From Pelagibius sp. (GTDB lineage: Bacteria > Pseudomonadota > Alphaproteobacteria > Kiloniellales > Kiloniellaceae), in assembly GCA_028280305.1 (NCBI GenBank), contig JANQMC010000034.1, positions 124,001-188,000 on the forward strand: DNA of 64,000 nt. The letters are read 5' to 3'. This document shows, piece after piece, positions 6,412 to 11,627 of the stretch (position 1 is the stretch's first letter; each line of letters starts with the position of its first letter). The notes beneath the pieces are model-generated. The model had not been told where the DNA came from and did not search any database. It saw only the letters and a program-made list of their open reading frames with translations. The translations under genes and the position numbers were made by a program.

Positions 6412-8199
6412 ATGGTTAGCTATTCCGCCCCCCTGGACGATATCCGCTTCGTGCTCTACGACCTGCTGGACTACGACGGTGCGGTCGCCAGTCTGCCCGG
6501 TTACGAGGAAGCCAGCCGCGATCTGGTCGACACGGTGATCGAGGAAGGCGCCAAGTTCTGCGAAAACGAACTGCTGCCGCTGAATCGCTCCGGCGATGAG
6601 GAAGGCTGCACCTTCGAGAACGGCGTGGTGCGCACGCCCAAGGGCTTCAAGGAACTCTACGAAGCCTTCTGCGAGGGCGGCTGGAACGGCCTGGCGCTCT
6701 CCCCCGATCATGGCGGTCAGGGCCTGCCCAAGACCCTGCAGTTCGTGCTGACAGAGCTGATCTGTTCGACCAACCTCAGCTTCGGCATGTATCCGGGTCT
6801 CACCCACGGCGCCTGCAATGCTCTGGAACTGCACGGCAGCGAGGCGCAGAAGACAACCTATCTGCCCAACATGATTCACGGCCGCTGGACCGGCACCATG
6901 TGCCTGACCGAACCGCACTGCGGCACCGATCTCGGCCTCATTCGCACCAAGGCCGATCCCAACGGCAACGGCAGCTACAAGATCACCGGTACCAAGATCT
7001 TCATCTCCGCCGGCGAACACGACATGAGCGAGAACATCGTTCATCTGGTGCTGGCAAAGCTGCCGGATGCGCCGGAAGGCTCCAAGGGTATCTCGCTCTT
7101 CATCGTGCCGAAGTTCCTGGTGAAGGACGACGGCTCTGTCGGCCCGCGCAACGGCGTTGCCTGCGGCTCCATCGAACACAAGATGGGCATCAAGGCCTCG
7201 TCGACCTGCGTGATGAATTTCGACGAAGCCGAGGGCTATCTGGTGGGTGAGCCCCACACCGGCATGGCCAAGATGTTCACCATGATGAATGTCGCGCGCT
7301 TGGATGTCGGCATGCAGGGCCTGGGCCTGGCAGAGACGGCCTATCAATCGGCGGCGGCCTACGCCAAGGAACGCCTTCAGGGCCGCTCCCTCGCCGGGCC
7401 GCAGCATCCCGACAAGGCAGCCGACCCGATTATCGTGCATCCCGATGTGCGCAAGAACCTGCTGACCATGAAGGCCTACAACGAAGGCTCGCGCGCTCTC
7501 GCTTTCTGGGTCGCCATGGCGGTGGACATTGCCGAGAAGCATCCGGATGAAAAGAAGCGCCAGGAGGCCGACGATCTCGTGGCCCTGATGACGCCGATCA
7601 TCAAGTCCTTCTTCACCGATCAGGGTTTCGAGAACACCAACCTCGGGGTCCAGGTCTTCGGCGGGCACGGCTACATTCGCGAATGGGGCATGGAACAGTT
7701 GGTGCGCGACGCCCGCATCGCCCAGATCTATGAGGGCGCCAACGGCATCCAGGCCCTCGACCTGGTGGGCCGCAAGCTGGGCCAGAACATGGGCCGCCTG
7801 CTGCGCCGTTTCTTCCACCCGGTGCAAGCCTTCATCGAGGACAACCAGAGCGACCCGCAGATGGCCGAATTCGTCGCGCCGTTGGCGAAGATTCTCAGCC
7901 GTCTGCAGCAGTCTACCCTCTGGATCGCCCAGCAGGGCCTGAAGGACCCGGAGGAGGCGGGAGCTGCCGCCACCGACTATCTAAACCTCTTCGCCCTGAC
8001 GGCACTGGCCTATATGTGGGCGCGCATGGTGAAGGTCAGTCTCGCCGCATCAAACGGCGAGATACCCGAGTTTCACGAGGCCAAGCTCGCCACTGCGCGC
8101 TTCTTCTTCCAGCGCCTCCTGCCCAAAAGCTCCGGCCTCTTCGCCGCCATCATGGCCGGCAAGGCGCCGCTGATGGAGATGAAGGAAGCGGCGTTCTAA
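6412..8199 (+). CDS. Acyl-CoA dehydrogenase, long (about 600-residue) class
   Basis: This FAD-dependent enzyme introduces the 2,3 double bond into acyl-CoA, the first oxidative step of beta-oxidation. It has 595 residues, longer than the 380-residue mitochondrial type. The extra C-terminal region resembles the additional domain of DmdC/FadE5-like dehydrogenases. The catalytic base is probably Glu 441 in YEGANGIQ. The active-site segment MCLTEPHCGTDLG and the FGGHGYIREWGMEQ motif are clear. A good ribosome-binding site (GGAGGAAC) precedes ATG 6412, which lies 22 bases after the fadN stop. It is the last gene of the fad operon. Substrate range is not decided by the sequence; a DmdC-like role on methylmercaptopropionyl-CoA is possible but less likely here. 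Confidence 0.92.
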   Translation: MVSYSAPLDDIRFVLYDLLDYDGAVASLPGYEEASRDLVDTVIEEGAKFCENELLPLNRSGDEEGCTFENGVVRTPKGFKELYEAFCEGGWNGLALSPDHGGQGLPKTLQFVLTELICSTNLSFGMYPGLTHGACNALELHGSEAQKTTYLPNMIHGRWTGTMCLTEPHCGTDLGLIRTKADPNGNGSYKITGTKIFISAGEHDMSENIVHLVLAKLPDAPEGSKGISLFIVPKFLVKDDGSVGPRNGVACGSIEHKMGIKASSTCVMNFDEAEGYLVGEPHTGMAKMFTMMNVARLDVGMQGLGLAETAYQSAAAYAKERLQGRSLAGPQHPDKAADPIIVHPDVRKNLLTMKAYNEGSRALAFWVAMAVDIAEKHPDEKKRQEADDLVALMTPIIKSFFTDQGFENTNLGVQVFGGHGYIREWGMEQLVRDARIAQIYEGANGIQALDLVGRKLGQNMGRLLRRFFHPVQAFIEDNQSDPQMAEFVAPLAKILSRLQQSTLWIAQQGLKDPEEAGAAATDYLNLFALTALAYMWARMVKVSLAASNGEIPEFHEAKLATARFFFQRLLPKSSGLFAAIMAGKAPLMEMKEAAF

Positions 8200-8287: not shown

Positions 8288-11149
8288 GTGGACGCGATTT
8301 CACAAACGGAACCGGTGGCTTTTCCGGCCTTTCACTTTGCCGGGACGTGGCGCGGTTACCAGGCGCGGGTGCTGGCGGAATTGCAGGGCCACCTGGATGA
8401 CGCGCGCCTGAACATCGTTGCGGCGCCGGGGGCGGGGAAGACGGTGTTGGGGCTGGAAGTTCTGCGCCGCCTCGGCCGCCCGGCCCTGGTGCTCTCGCCG
8501 ACTCGCGCGATCCGCGATCAATGGATTACCCGTCTGCATGAACTCTTCCAGCCCGAGGAAGGAGACTGGCCTACCGGCCTGGGCATCGACCTCGCCGCGC
8601 CCGGCTGGCTGACCTCGGCCACCTATCAGTCCCTGCATTCGTCCCTGCGCGGTCTTTTGGATCCCGATATGGCGGCGGAGGATGAAGGATCGGAAGAAGA
8701 GGAAGCCGGTAACGTCGACGACGATGACGATGAAGAAGAGCCAGATACCGACACCGCGAAAGATCCGGCTCGTCTGGCGGGCGAGGCCTTGCTCCAAACC
8801 CTGGAGCGTGCCGGGATCGAGACCCTGGTGCTCGACGAGGCCCATCACCTGCGCCGCGCCTGGTGGGAGAGTCTGCAGGAAGTCATCGGCCATTTGAAAG
8901 AGCGGCGGCCCGGCTTTCACATCGTCAGCCTTACCGCAACCCCGCCCTACGACGTCGAGCAGGAGGAATGGGACCGCTATGCTGAGGTCTGCGGGCCGAT
9001 CGACGCGGAAATCTCGATCCCCGAACTGGTGAAACAAGGCGATCTCTGTCCGCATCAGGATTTTCTCCACTTCAGCGTTGCCGAGGGGGAGGCCATCGAA
9101 AGCCTGGAAACCTTTGCCCGCGAAGTGGAGGCTTTGGCCCGGACCTGGGCGCGGGACGAGGAACTGCAGGCCTGGGTGAGGGAATTCACCTGGCTGCAGC
9201 AGCCTGCGGCCCACGAGCTCGACATTCTTCGCGCGCCGGATGCCTATCTGGGCGCGCTCTCGGTTGCCCGGCTGGCCGGTTTGAAAGTCACCGCCGAGGC
9301 TCTGGCGGTTCTCGACTTTGACCGGGAGGAGATTCCCGAACCCGCTTCCAATGTCCTCGAAAGCCTGTTCCAGAACCTGCTCGACAATCAGGCGCCTTTC
9401 GACTGCGGCCCGCTGGCCGAGCGGCTGCGCCGGGATCTTCAGGCGGTCGGTGCGCTGTGGCGCGGCAAAATCCGCTTTCATAAGAAAGAGAAACTGGCGC
9501 GGGCCCTGGCCGGCACCACCGGCAAGCTGGCTAGCATCGAGGACATTGCCCGGGCCGAGCTGGAGAGTCAGGGCGAGGCGCTGCGCCTGGTGGTGCTCAC
9601 CGACTTCGTACGTTCCGCTGCTCTGACGCGCCCGACCGGTCAATCGAGCAACGTCCTGGGCGCGGGCCCCATTCTTCGCCGCCTTGGGCAGGCGGGTCTG
9701 GCCCCCGCTCTGCGGCCTGCCCTGATGACCGGCAGTTGGGTCGTAATCCCCGACGAGGTCATACCGGCGCTGCGCAGCGAGGCCGCGAAGCTCGGCCTGC
9801 TGGAAGAGGACATGGCGATCAAGTCGTTGCCGCATCTGCCGGGCTGGTCGCGGATCTCGGTCACCAACAGCAAGGCGCCGCTGAGGCTGCGGGTCATCAC
9901 CCACCTTTTCGAAGAAGGGCATCTGCGCTGCCTCATCGGGACCGCGGCGCTGCTGGGCGAGGGCTGGGATGCGCCTTCGATCAACGCCCTTGTTCTGGCC
10001 ACCTCGGTGAAGTCCTTCATGCTGTCCAACCAGATGCGCGGCCGGGCGATCAGGATTTCCCGGCGCAACCCAGACAAGGTGGCGGCGATCTGGCATCTGG
10101 CCACGATCCTGCCGCCTTCGGCGACGCTTTCGCAAAACGAGGTCTCGGTCTGGGAGCGTTTGGGTCTCATCAAACGGGAAACCGAAGCCAGGGGCCGGCT
10201 GGACGTCAATCCTTCCTGGCTGGGCCGGGATGCCGTAACCGTTTTCCGGCGTTTCAAGGTTTTTGCCGGGGTGTCGCACAAGCCGCCTTATGTCATCGAA
10301 TCGGGTATTGACCGGCTCGGCATACAGACCCACCGCTGGACGGAGTCCTCTGCGGCAGCATGGAATCAAACCATGTTGGAAAGGGCGGCAGCCCGTGCTT
10401 CGGTCGGGGATGCCTGGAAGGCGGCCTTCGATTTCAAGGCGGAGGTCGAGAGGCCGGCGACCGGGGCCTCTGTGCCGCAAGTTAAGGGGCACAAGGCGGT
10501 GGTGCGCTTCGGGACGACGGCCCTGATGGCCGGCTTCATCGGTCTGATCATACAGGCGCTTCAGTTTTCCCTGAACTTCAGCAGCCTGGGGCTGCGCGCC
10601 GTGCTGGCCGTTGGCGGCGGAGGGCTGATCCTGGTGACGCTTCTTTCAAGCGGGGCCATTCTTCGGACTCTGCGGGCCGGATCGCCCGCGCGTTACATGG
10701 CCGAGATCGGCCGTTCGCTGCTCGATGGCCTGGCCGTTGCCGATGAACTGCATACGCCGCGGCACCAGGTCGATGTCTGGGTCGAGGATTCTGCGCCCCA
10801 GGCGATACGCTTTTGCCGGGTTACCGGCGGGGCCCACCACGATGAAGTGGTTTTCGCCGATGCCATGGTGACCTTCTTCGGGCCTATCGAGTCACCCAGA
10901 TATCTTCTGATCCGCCGTCACCGGCGCGGCTGGTTGAAGCAGATCGACTATCATGCCGTTCCCGACGCTATCGGTCATCACGAAGCGGCGCGGGCCATGC
11001 TGAAGCGCGCCTGGGAAAGGCGTATTGGCGCTTGCGAACTGGTCAACACGCGGACCCGCGACGGACGCAATCTGCTGCTGCGGGCACGCATCCTGTCTTA
11101 TTCCGCCGGGCTGCGGGGCGATGCGGAACGCAAGCTGCGTTGGGAATAG
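8288..11149 (+). CDS. Superfamily II DEAD/DEAH helicase with two C-terminal membrane helices
   Basis: This 953-residue protein starts at GTG 8288. SF2 motifs appear in order: WRGYQ near residue 21, Walker A APGAGKT at 46-52, LSPTR at 69, DEAH at 183-186, LTATPP at 215-220, GEGWDAPS at 557-564 and QMRGRAIR at 582-589. This predicts an ATP-dependent nucleic-acid helicase or translocase. A very acidic insert (about 130-153) lies between the early motifs and the DEAH box. After the helicase core come two hydrophobic segments at about 744-762 and 771-791, then a 160-residue soluble tail that I do not recognise. No methylase, nuclease or other defence gene is adjacent. Membrane attachment of an SF2 helicase is unusual. 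The function is unknown: DNA repair, RNA handling and phage defence are all open. Confidence 0.85.
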   Translation: MDAISQTEPVAFPAFHFAGTWRGYQARVLAELQGHLDDARLNIVAAPGAGKTVLGLEVLRRLGRPALVLSPTRAIRDQWITRLHELFQPEEGDWPTGLGIDLAAPGWLTSATYQSLHSSLRGLLDPDMAAEDEGSEEEEAGNVDDDDDEEEPDTDTAKDPARLAGEALLQTLERAGIETLVLDEAHHLRRAWWESLQEVIGHLKERRPGFHIVSLTATPPYDVEQEEWDRYAEVCGPIDAEISIPELVKQGDLCPHQDFLHFSVAEGEAIESLETFAREVEALARTWARDEELQAWVREFTWLQQPAAHELDILRAPDAYLGALSVARLAGLKVTAEALAVLDFDREEIPEPASNVLESLFQNLLDNQAPFDCGPLAERLRRDLQAVGALWRGKIRFHKKEKLARALAGTTGKLASIEDIARAELESQGEALRLVVLTDFVRSAALTRPTGQSSNVLGAGPILRRLGQAGLAPALRPALMTGSWVVIPDEVIPALRSEAAKLGLLEEDMAIKSLPHLPGWSRISVTNSKAPLRLRVITHLFEEGHLRCLIGTAALLGEGWDAPSINALVLATSVKSFMLSNQMRGRAIRISRRNPDKVAAIWHLATILPPSATLSQNEVSVWERLGLIKRETEARGRLDVNPSWLGRDAVTVFRRFKVFAGVSHKPPYVIESGIDRLGIQTHRWTESSAAAWNQTMLERAAARASVGDAWKAAFDFKAEVERPATGASVPQVKGHKAVVRFGTTALMAGFIGLIIQALQFSLNFSSLGLRAVLAVGGGGLILVTLLSSGAILRTLRAGSPARYMAEIGRSLLDGLAVADELHTPRHQVDVWVEDSAPQAIRFCRVTGGAHHDEVVFADAMVTFFGPIESPRYLLIRRHRRGWLKQIDYHAVPDAIGHHEAARAMLKRAWERRIGACELVNTRTRDGRNLLLRARILSYSAGLRGDAERKLRWE

Positions 11150-11153
11150 CGGG

Positions 11154-11627
11154 CTATCCGCGCTCGATGCGGAACTGAAAACAGTTGTTGTTCGCCGAAC
11201 GAACGTGAATGTAGGCGATCTTGGGGTCCGCGAAGATTTTCGCCGCGGCGGTTTCGATCTCCGTCGGCGCGACCACCTTGCCGGTGCCGTAAACGATCCG
11301 ATCGTTCGTGCCGTAGCCGCGGATCAGTATCCCTTCACGCGTCTTCAGATAGGCCGGGACGCCGGCAGACTCCGAATGGCGCTGGCAATCCCCGGCGTGA
11401 ATGAAGAGCGGGCCGACCTCGGCATAGGGCTGGGCGCCCGGGAAGGGGCGGTGGGCCAGAACCAGAAAGGGATCGCCCTCCGGCATATCCTCCAGGCAGT
11501 GGCGGCAGGGGTTGCCGCCGCCGTCGGAAACCTGGGGCTCCGGCGTTTGGCCGTTTGCATCCTTGCCGCCGTTGCGCAGGCTCTTCACGGTCTCGCTGTC
11601 CAACGCGACAAATCGCAGAGAAGTCAT
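11154..11627 (-). CDS. DUF1203 family protein
   Basis: This 157-residue soluble protein of unknown function resembles the DUF1203 family: about 155 residues, with a CRHCLEDMPEGDPFLVLAHRPF segment near the N-terminus and a RGYGTNDRIVYGTG segment in the C-terminal half. The CxxC and a conserved DC...H further on could bind a metal, but this is unproven in the family. The gene converges on the helicase gene with only 4 bases between stop codons, so the two are not co-transcribed. No signal peptide or membrane segment is visible. Confidence 0.75.
   Translation of the reverse strand: MTSLRFVALDSETVKSLRNGGKDANGQTPEPQVSDGGGNPCRHCLEDMPEGDPFLVLAHRPFPGAQPYAEVGPLFIHAGDCQRHSESAGVPAYLKTREGILIRGYGTNDRIVYGTGKVVAPTEIETAAAKIFADPKIAYIHVRSANNNCFQFRIERG

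Follow-up and report, generated by a model that had tools for sequence, protein, structure and literature searches.

What is a superfamily 2 (SF2) helicase doing with two hydrophobic helices and a C-terminal domain that matches no recognised family? This question is raised by an open reading frame (ORF) on the plus strand of a 64,000 nt stretch of Pelagibius sp. DNA (assembly GCA_028280305.1, contig JANQMC010000034.1, positions 124,001 to 188,000; this whole stretch is referred to as the window). The ORF (8288..11149) is complete, starts with GTG and encodes a putative membrane-anchored SF2 helicase of 953 aa. Four other genomes of the genus encode a protein with an identical start and length (61–68% identity), which confirms that the ORF is real, and the motifs described below are conserved among relatives. 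Only a single copy was returned by a whole-genome search for paralogues. Our data show that this helicase is no oddity, and is a member of a widespread family of bacteria and archaea, including Asgard archaea. SF2 helicases rank with the most thoroughly studied enzymes, but neither Pfam, NCBIfam and PADLOC nor the open literature searched yielded a description of this family, which ranges from streptococci to Asgard archaea and combines a conserved hairpin with its own C-terminal domain. Searches of open-licence papers for a membrane or transmembrane helicase family gave nothing relevant, and a description elsewhere is possible.

Architecture of the helicase

Pfam assigned the ORF to ResIII (E=4.6e-12) and DEAD (E=8.6e-10). 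An initial annotation, which was made from the sequence alone, had reported a complete set of helicase motifs, and this was borne out by the alignment of 67 full-length relatives, on which all family statistics for motifs, hairpin and loop are based. Motif I/Walker A (APGAGKT, residues 46–52, 8423..8443), motif II (DEAHH, residues 183–187, 8834..8848), LTATPP (residues 215–220) and motif VI (QMRGRAIR, residues 582–589, 10031..10054) are nearly or fully invariant. An AlphaFold2 model of the whole protein, calculated from the 67-sequence alignment, reached a mean pLDDT of 85.4 and a pTM of 0.86; statements on structure and topology are predictions throughout. It comprises two RecA domains, a helical insert (residues 268–431), two long helices (733–763 and 766–796) and an alpha/beta domain. 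The first RecA domain covers residues about 12–260 (8321..9067; Pfam ResIII at 21–220) and could be aligned to XPB, Hef and RadD, while RecA2 with its extension (residues 432–720, 9581..10447) was delimited by motif alignment, the model and structural comparison.

The closest structure in the PDB was XPB in TFIIH (Z 18.8, rmsd 4.7, 387 residues aligned), followed by Hef (Z 17.3, rmsd 6.2, 400 aligned) and RadD (Z 16.2, rmsd 5.0, 320 aligned). Foldseek placed Dicer-2 in the top row (E=7.9e-12), with Hef also among the top rows, and the best sequence-profile match was Rad25 (E=4.4e-16). The protein is therefore a complete SF2 helicase with a core like those of XPB/Rad25 and RadD. It shares this core with XPB/Rad25 (Ssl2) and the archaeal XPB-Bax1 pair, but adds a helical insert of about 160 residues, a predicted membrane hairpin and its own C-terminal domain, and no Bax1 or TFIIH partner was seen. 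From RadD (YejH) it differs by the hairpin and by another C-terminal domain. Scores against the NCBIfam models for XPB/Rad25 (NF045503, 20.7 bits, cut-off 610) and RadD (NF053632, 26 bits, cut-off 720) were below the equivalog thresholds. The family probably works like known SF2 translocases; by sequence score it lies outside the XPB and RadD equivalogs as well as the systems of PADLOC.

The initial annotation had pointed to two hydrophobic segments at about residues 744–791. Both are present and slightly longer in the model, with helix 1 at residues 733–763 (10484..10576) and helix 2 at 766–796 (10583..10675); hydrophobicity, the 67 relatives and the model all delimit them. In the window protein their Kyte-Doolittle means over 19 residues are 1.86 and 1.91. 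Two hydrophobic segments occupy this position in 57 of the 67 relatives and one in a further 9. In 59/67 relatives no other 19-residue window of the protein is as hydrophobic as that in the hairpin region, with a median of 2.30 compared to 1.55 for the best window elsewhere in the same proteins, so that this cannot be attributed to chance. Its hydrophobicity reaches 3.3 over 19 residues at little sequence conservation, and retention of hydrophobicity in a varying sequence is the pattern expected of lipid-facing helices. The flanks of the hairpin are net basic on both sides (484 K/R versus 353 D/E before it, 140 versus 61 after it). According to the positive-inside rule, basic flanks mark the cytoplasmic side, so both ends of the hairpin would be located there. 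This suggests a cytoplasmic position for helicase core and C-terminal domain alike. Conserved transmembrane-type segments appear to be present, and a membrane location is predicted. The structure prediction did not bury the hydrophobic segments in a soluble domain. Action at the membrane, as initially proposed, thus gains support from the predicted helices and from conservation of the hairpin in bacteria and archaea.

The C-terminal tail of about 160 residues had been noted as unrecognised. It corresponds to an alpha/beta domain (residues 799–953, 10682..11146), delimited by the alignment and by a model of the domain alone (156 residues), which folded confidently (pLDDT 91.7, pTM 0.86). A search of 49 such domains against Pfam, nuclease families included, gave no match; neither did a search of PDB sequences, and a Foldseek comparison to PDB folds returned nothing significant (best E 1.5). 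The best row of VIA-align was an Ohr/OsmC-like fold (Z 6.0, rmsd 3.1), but only 70 residues were aligned, and this may reflect just a common arrangement; we did not adopt it. The domain remains unrecognised by profile, PDB sequence and fold searches, none of which gave a convincing match, although a related fold may exist outside the rows listed. Y872 and P892 are invariant, and R871, T921, R922, G926, R927 and R934 nearly so. Arg, Gly, Tyr and Pro account for most of the conserved positions, and an invariant set of D/E and K was not seen in the alignment of the domain. As far as residue types can tell, they resemble a binding site more than a catalytic one. The domain is kept even in the most divergent rows of the family. 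A scan of 296 Bacteroidota genomes located it 11 times: in 10 cases within an ORF of 876–931 aa, the size of full members, and once in a 52-residue remnant. It is thus fused to this helicase almost always when it is found.

Two further elements vary. The acidic insert described earlier near residues 130–153 exists as a disordered loop (residues 124–156, 8657..8755), in which 18 of the 30 residues from position 124 are D/E and pLDDT is below 50 at 131–149. Among the relatives it has a median length of 10 residues (range 3–47), and D/E account for at least 30% of it in 44/67 (12% overall). The loop is variable and is no defining feature of the family. The helical insert, about 160 residues at 268–431 (9089..9580), was not part of the initial description, nor was the membership of a large family. 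In the model it follows a strand at 256–264 and precedes the RecA2 strand at 434–437, which would be the same topological place as that of the Hel2i domain in Hef/FANCM, RIG-I-like and Dicer helicases. The C-terminal domains of those proteins are different, and no membrane hairpin is known in any of them. Within the genus the insert is the least conserved soluble part (45–51% identity versus 73–83% in RecA1).

Range and evolution of the family

A genome scan with a nine-sequence alignment as query detected at least 80 loci in Bacillota, Bacteroidota, Alpha- and Gammaproteobacteria, Verrucomicrobiota, Actinomycetota, Melainabacteria, Thorarchaeota and others, which gives a lower bound of the taxonomic range; in the fetched loci genes were called as simple ORFs. 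The whole architecture aligns across the nine sequences, with a Rhodobacterales version that has the C-terminal domain and lacks the acidic loop and the hairpin. A search of plasmids yielded a full-length Paenibacillus relative, which has no annotation beyond 'DEAD/DEAH box helicase family protein', together with shorter relatives from Rhodobacterales. The latter include the copies on Tritonibacter and Rhodovulum plasmids (L009 and L008), in which loop and hairpin are missing while the C-terminal domain and the helicase core are retained; in Rhodovulum the copy is distributed over different reading frames. A distant sister group from Planctomycetota, Chloroflexota, Thermoplasmatota and Acetivibrio (L080, L082, L085, L087, L088, L089, L091) also matches the C-terminal profile, and some of its members are without a hydrophobic hairpin.

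Presence of the gene is patchy. Among 58 genomes of related taxa it was confined to the genus of the window, where 5 of 8 genomes carry it. It was found in 19/149 species of Flavobacteriaceae and in 21/98 genomes of Streptococcus, one copy of the latter being broken. This copy (G426:C9:100159-102797) consists of two pieces with internal stops, and is evidence of decay of the gene in some strains. The class-level scan (141/289 hits) gave mostly generic motif matches and just three full-length members, the window protein included. The gene tree follows the phyla to a large extent, with 16 label changes compared to a minimum of 10 and a mean of 36.9 after shuffling. Together with the patchy presence this agrees with an old accessory gene that is often lost and occasionally transferred.

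Within the genus the helicase diverges faster than its neighbour FadE (59–67% versus 83–95% identity), most strongly in the helical insert and the hairpin. In the closest pair a dN of 0.023 and a dS of 0.247 indicate purifying selection. Two full-length relatives are deposited as 'Bacteriophage sp.' (MT836806.1 and MT838455.1; L010 and L011). They cluster with chromosomal copies of gut Bacillota and are marked UNVERIFIED, and for these reasons we did not count them as phage genes; they are probably bacterial scaffolds.

The initial annotation had seen no partner genes, and the survey of neighbours agrees with this. Clustering of 1169 neighbouring ORFs gave no recurrent partner across lineages. 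The clusters reflect mainly lineage-specific synteny, above all hemB and other heme genes in Flavobacteriia, together with large, common families (e.g., transporters and sensor kinases) whose distance from the helicase is not constant. When close neighbours were scanned one by one, they proved to be unrelated regulators, transporters and metabolic enzymes. The helicase is a stand-alone accessory gene that is gained and lost by lineages.

A streptococcal hot spot and the possible functions

In streptococci of the mitis group the helicase adjoins a DedA-type gene, and a variable cassette extends from there to metE (DedA and MetE were named by reading of the sequence alone, not by a family search). 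PADLOC identified HsdR, HsdM and HsdS of type I systems, a PDC-S05 protein, AbiH, SIR2 and HerA as cargo of this hot spot, which is of a kind already known for anti-phage genes. Of 16 helicase-free sites examined, 13 hold the same cargo classes and 3 hold transporter-like genes. Sites with and without the helicase can share their type of cargo (L219 versus L264; L063, L216 and L220 versus L255 and L263), and sometimes the very genes (L219 versus L264; L063 versus L255 and L263). Since the same kind of cargo occurs where the helicase is missing, the helicase behaves as a separate cargo item at the edge of the hot spot, and this is the main reason to prefer a function in defence. Sites of this kind were seen at L063, L213-L216, L218-L221 and L252-L267, which also carry a KAP-like ATPase and other cassettes. 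Two large uncharacterised proteins of the hot spot without a PADLOC match (L214:5-2410, 802 aa; L219:4447-6357, 637 aa) are candidates for undescribed defence genes.

Considering these data, we favour the view that the protein is a membrane-tethered, stand-alone translocase or sensor of nucleic acids that takes part in defence against invaders, with a likelihood that we place just short of even and that includes the sensor-effector form discussed below. The two-helix hairpin would tether an ATP-driven SF2 motor to the cytoplasmic side of the membrane, where this motor could engage invading nucleic acid (phage or plasmid DNA, or transcripts) and translocate on it or remodel it at the expense of ATP. 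Establishment of the invader might be blocked directly, or a harmful membrane response might be triggered through the hairpin. The fast-diverging helical insert may help in recognition, and the Arg-rich C-terminal domain may bind nucleic acid or a ligand. A one-gene system of this type would place a nucleic-acid motor at the membrane, the entry point of phage DNA and plasmids. A more far-reaching version, which we regard as rather unlikely, would make the family a widespread single-gene immune helicase of bacteria and Asgard archaea that senses invading nucleic acid at the membrane, built from a motor of the Hel1-Hel2i-Hel2 type, as in RIG-I, Dicer and Hef, a hairpin as effector or anchor, and a C-terminal domain with a possibly new fold.

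Known defence proteins offer partial parallels. Hna, an anti-phage SF2 helicase-nuclease, is likewise a single protein with a C-terminal accessory domain, in that case a PD-(D/E)XK nuclease (PMC13381803). The domain of our helicase appears to differ from it by the lack of an invariant acidic/lysine set, of a Pfam nuclease match and of a convincing fold match, and a hairpin is added. With HsdR of type I and Res of type III systems the ResIII domain of Pfam is shared, but a recognised nuclease domain and a methylase or specificity partner of its own are missing.

Several observations weigh against a role in defence. The hot-spot link rests on one genus and is observed in streptococci only; outside streptococci the neighbours are housekeeping genes, such as hemB and hemF in Flavobacteriia, regulators, a tRNA synthetase and transporters. 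The proposal that the gene is a defence factor, made in the initial annotation, is therefore backed by the mitis-group hot spot and by patchy gain and loss at fixed sites, but not by the surroundings in other lineages. PADLOC gave few and mixed matches for the 150 nearest neighbours, with no coherent system, and the window protein itself matched PADLOC-DB 2.0.0 by helicase motifs only (best E=1.3e-4), corresponding to no catalogued anti-phage system. No nuclease or other effector domain was recognised. The phylum-wise tree shows that the gene is less mobile than many defence genes, and scans of IMG/VR with the single protein and with the alignment detected no family member, just helicases matching short stretches around motifs. 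Finally, Rhodobacterales relatives without the hairpin exist, so that the hairpin is not absolutely required.

Some of these points suit an accessory translocase of a housekeeping type, similar to RadD or XPB, that repairs or remodels DNA or transcripts and is tethered to the membrane to serve attached chromosome regions, forks or transcripts, with the place in the hot spot being incidental. We consider this quite possible, if short of probable. The core is closest to three proteins of DNA repair (XPB, Hef and RadD), and the mostly phylum-wise tree, the stable locus beside hemB in Flavobacteriia and the purifying selection in one close pair are all in agreement with it. In one Weeksellaceae locus, a gene of the UDG superfamily adjoins the helicase. 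However, the gene is missing from most species even in genera and families that carry it, and it diverges much faster than adjoining housekeeping genes. No repair helicase is known to have a membrane hairpin. If the protein does not act in defence, it would still represent an unexplained motor for DNA or RNA that is tethered to the membrane.

Defence could also take the form of abortive infection, in analogy to eukaryotic RIG-I-like sensing: the helicase core would serve as sensor only, and the hairpin would be an effector that opens the membrane. This form has in its favour the predicted Hel2i position of the helical insert, the Dicer-2 and Hef rows of Foldseek, and a two-helix membrane module modelled between soluble domains. 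The C-terminal domain gave no match to the RIG-I CTD, however, and members of the Rhodobacterales without hairpin would be left without an effector; we regard this form as distinctly unlikely. Still less probable is an ordinary soluble SF2 helicase whose hairpin packs inside an oligomer. The pLDDT of the hairpin is just about 58–84, the segments are weak in two relatives (L022, L030) and absent from L009, but two long consecutive helices in the model and the lipid-facing pattern of the hairpin argue against such packing.

A helicase for DNA uptake, which had been proposed initially and would pull incoming single-stranded DNA through the membrane like ComFA, is the least probable of all: the predicted membrane tether would suit it, and some carriers, e.g., streptococci of the mitis group, are naturally competent, but about four in five Streptococcus species lack the gene in a genus where competence genes are common, none of the recurrent families of neighbours consists of competence genes, and the six cysteines of the window protein, encoded next to fad genes and DUF1203, include no CxxC pair as in the zinc finger of ComFA.

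The insertion site in the genus

In carriers of the genus, the helicase lies between fadE and a DUF1203 gene. In the window these correspond to a fadE-like acyl-CoA dehydrogenase gene on the left (6412..8199, plus strand, assigned by Pfam), which marks the site and is no partner, and to the DUF1203 gene on the right (11154..11627, minus strand, PF06718 and synteny). Both genes are directly adjacent in two genomes without the helicase (G003 and G004), so that the gene was either inserted or cleanly lost at this single site. DUF1203 is found at this site in 7 of the 8 genus genomes, 5 with and 2 without the helicase; in the eighth the contig ends. Just beyond the helicase, G007 contains a 128-bp duplicate of the 3′ end of fadE (92% identical; L176:10825-10950), and about 2.8 kb of extra DNA follow before DUF1203. 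This copy resembles a scar left by an insertion or recombination event at the site.

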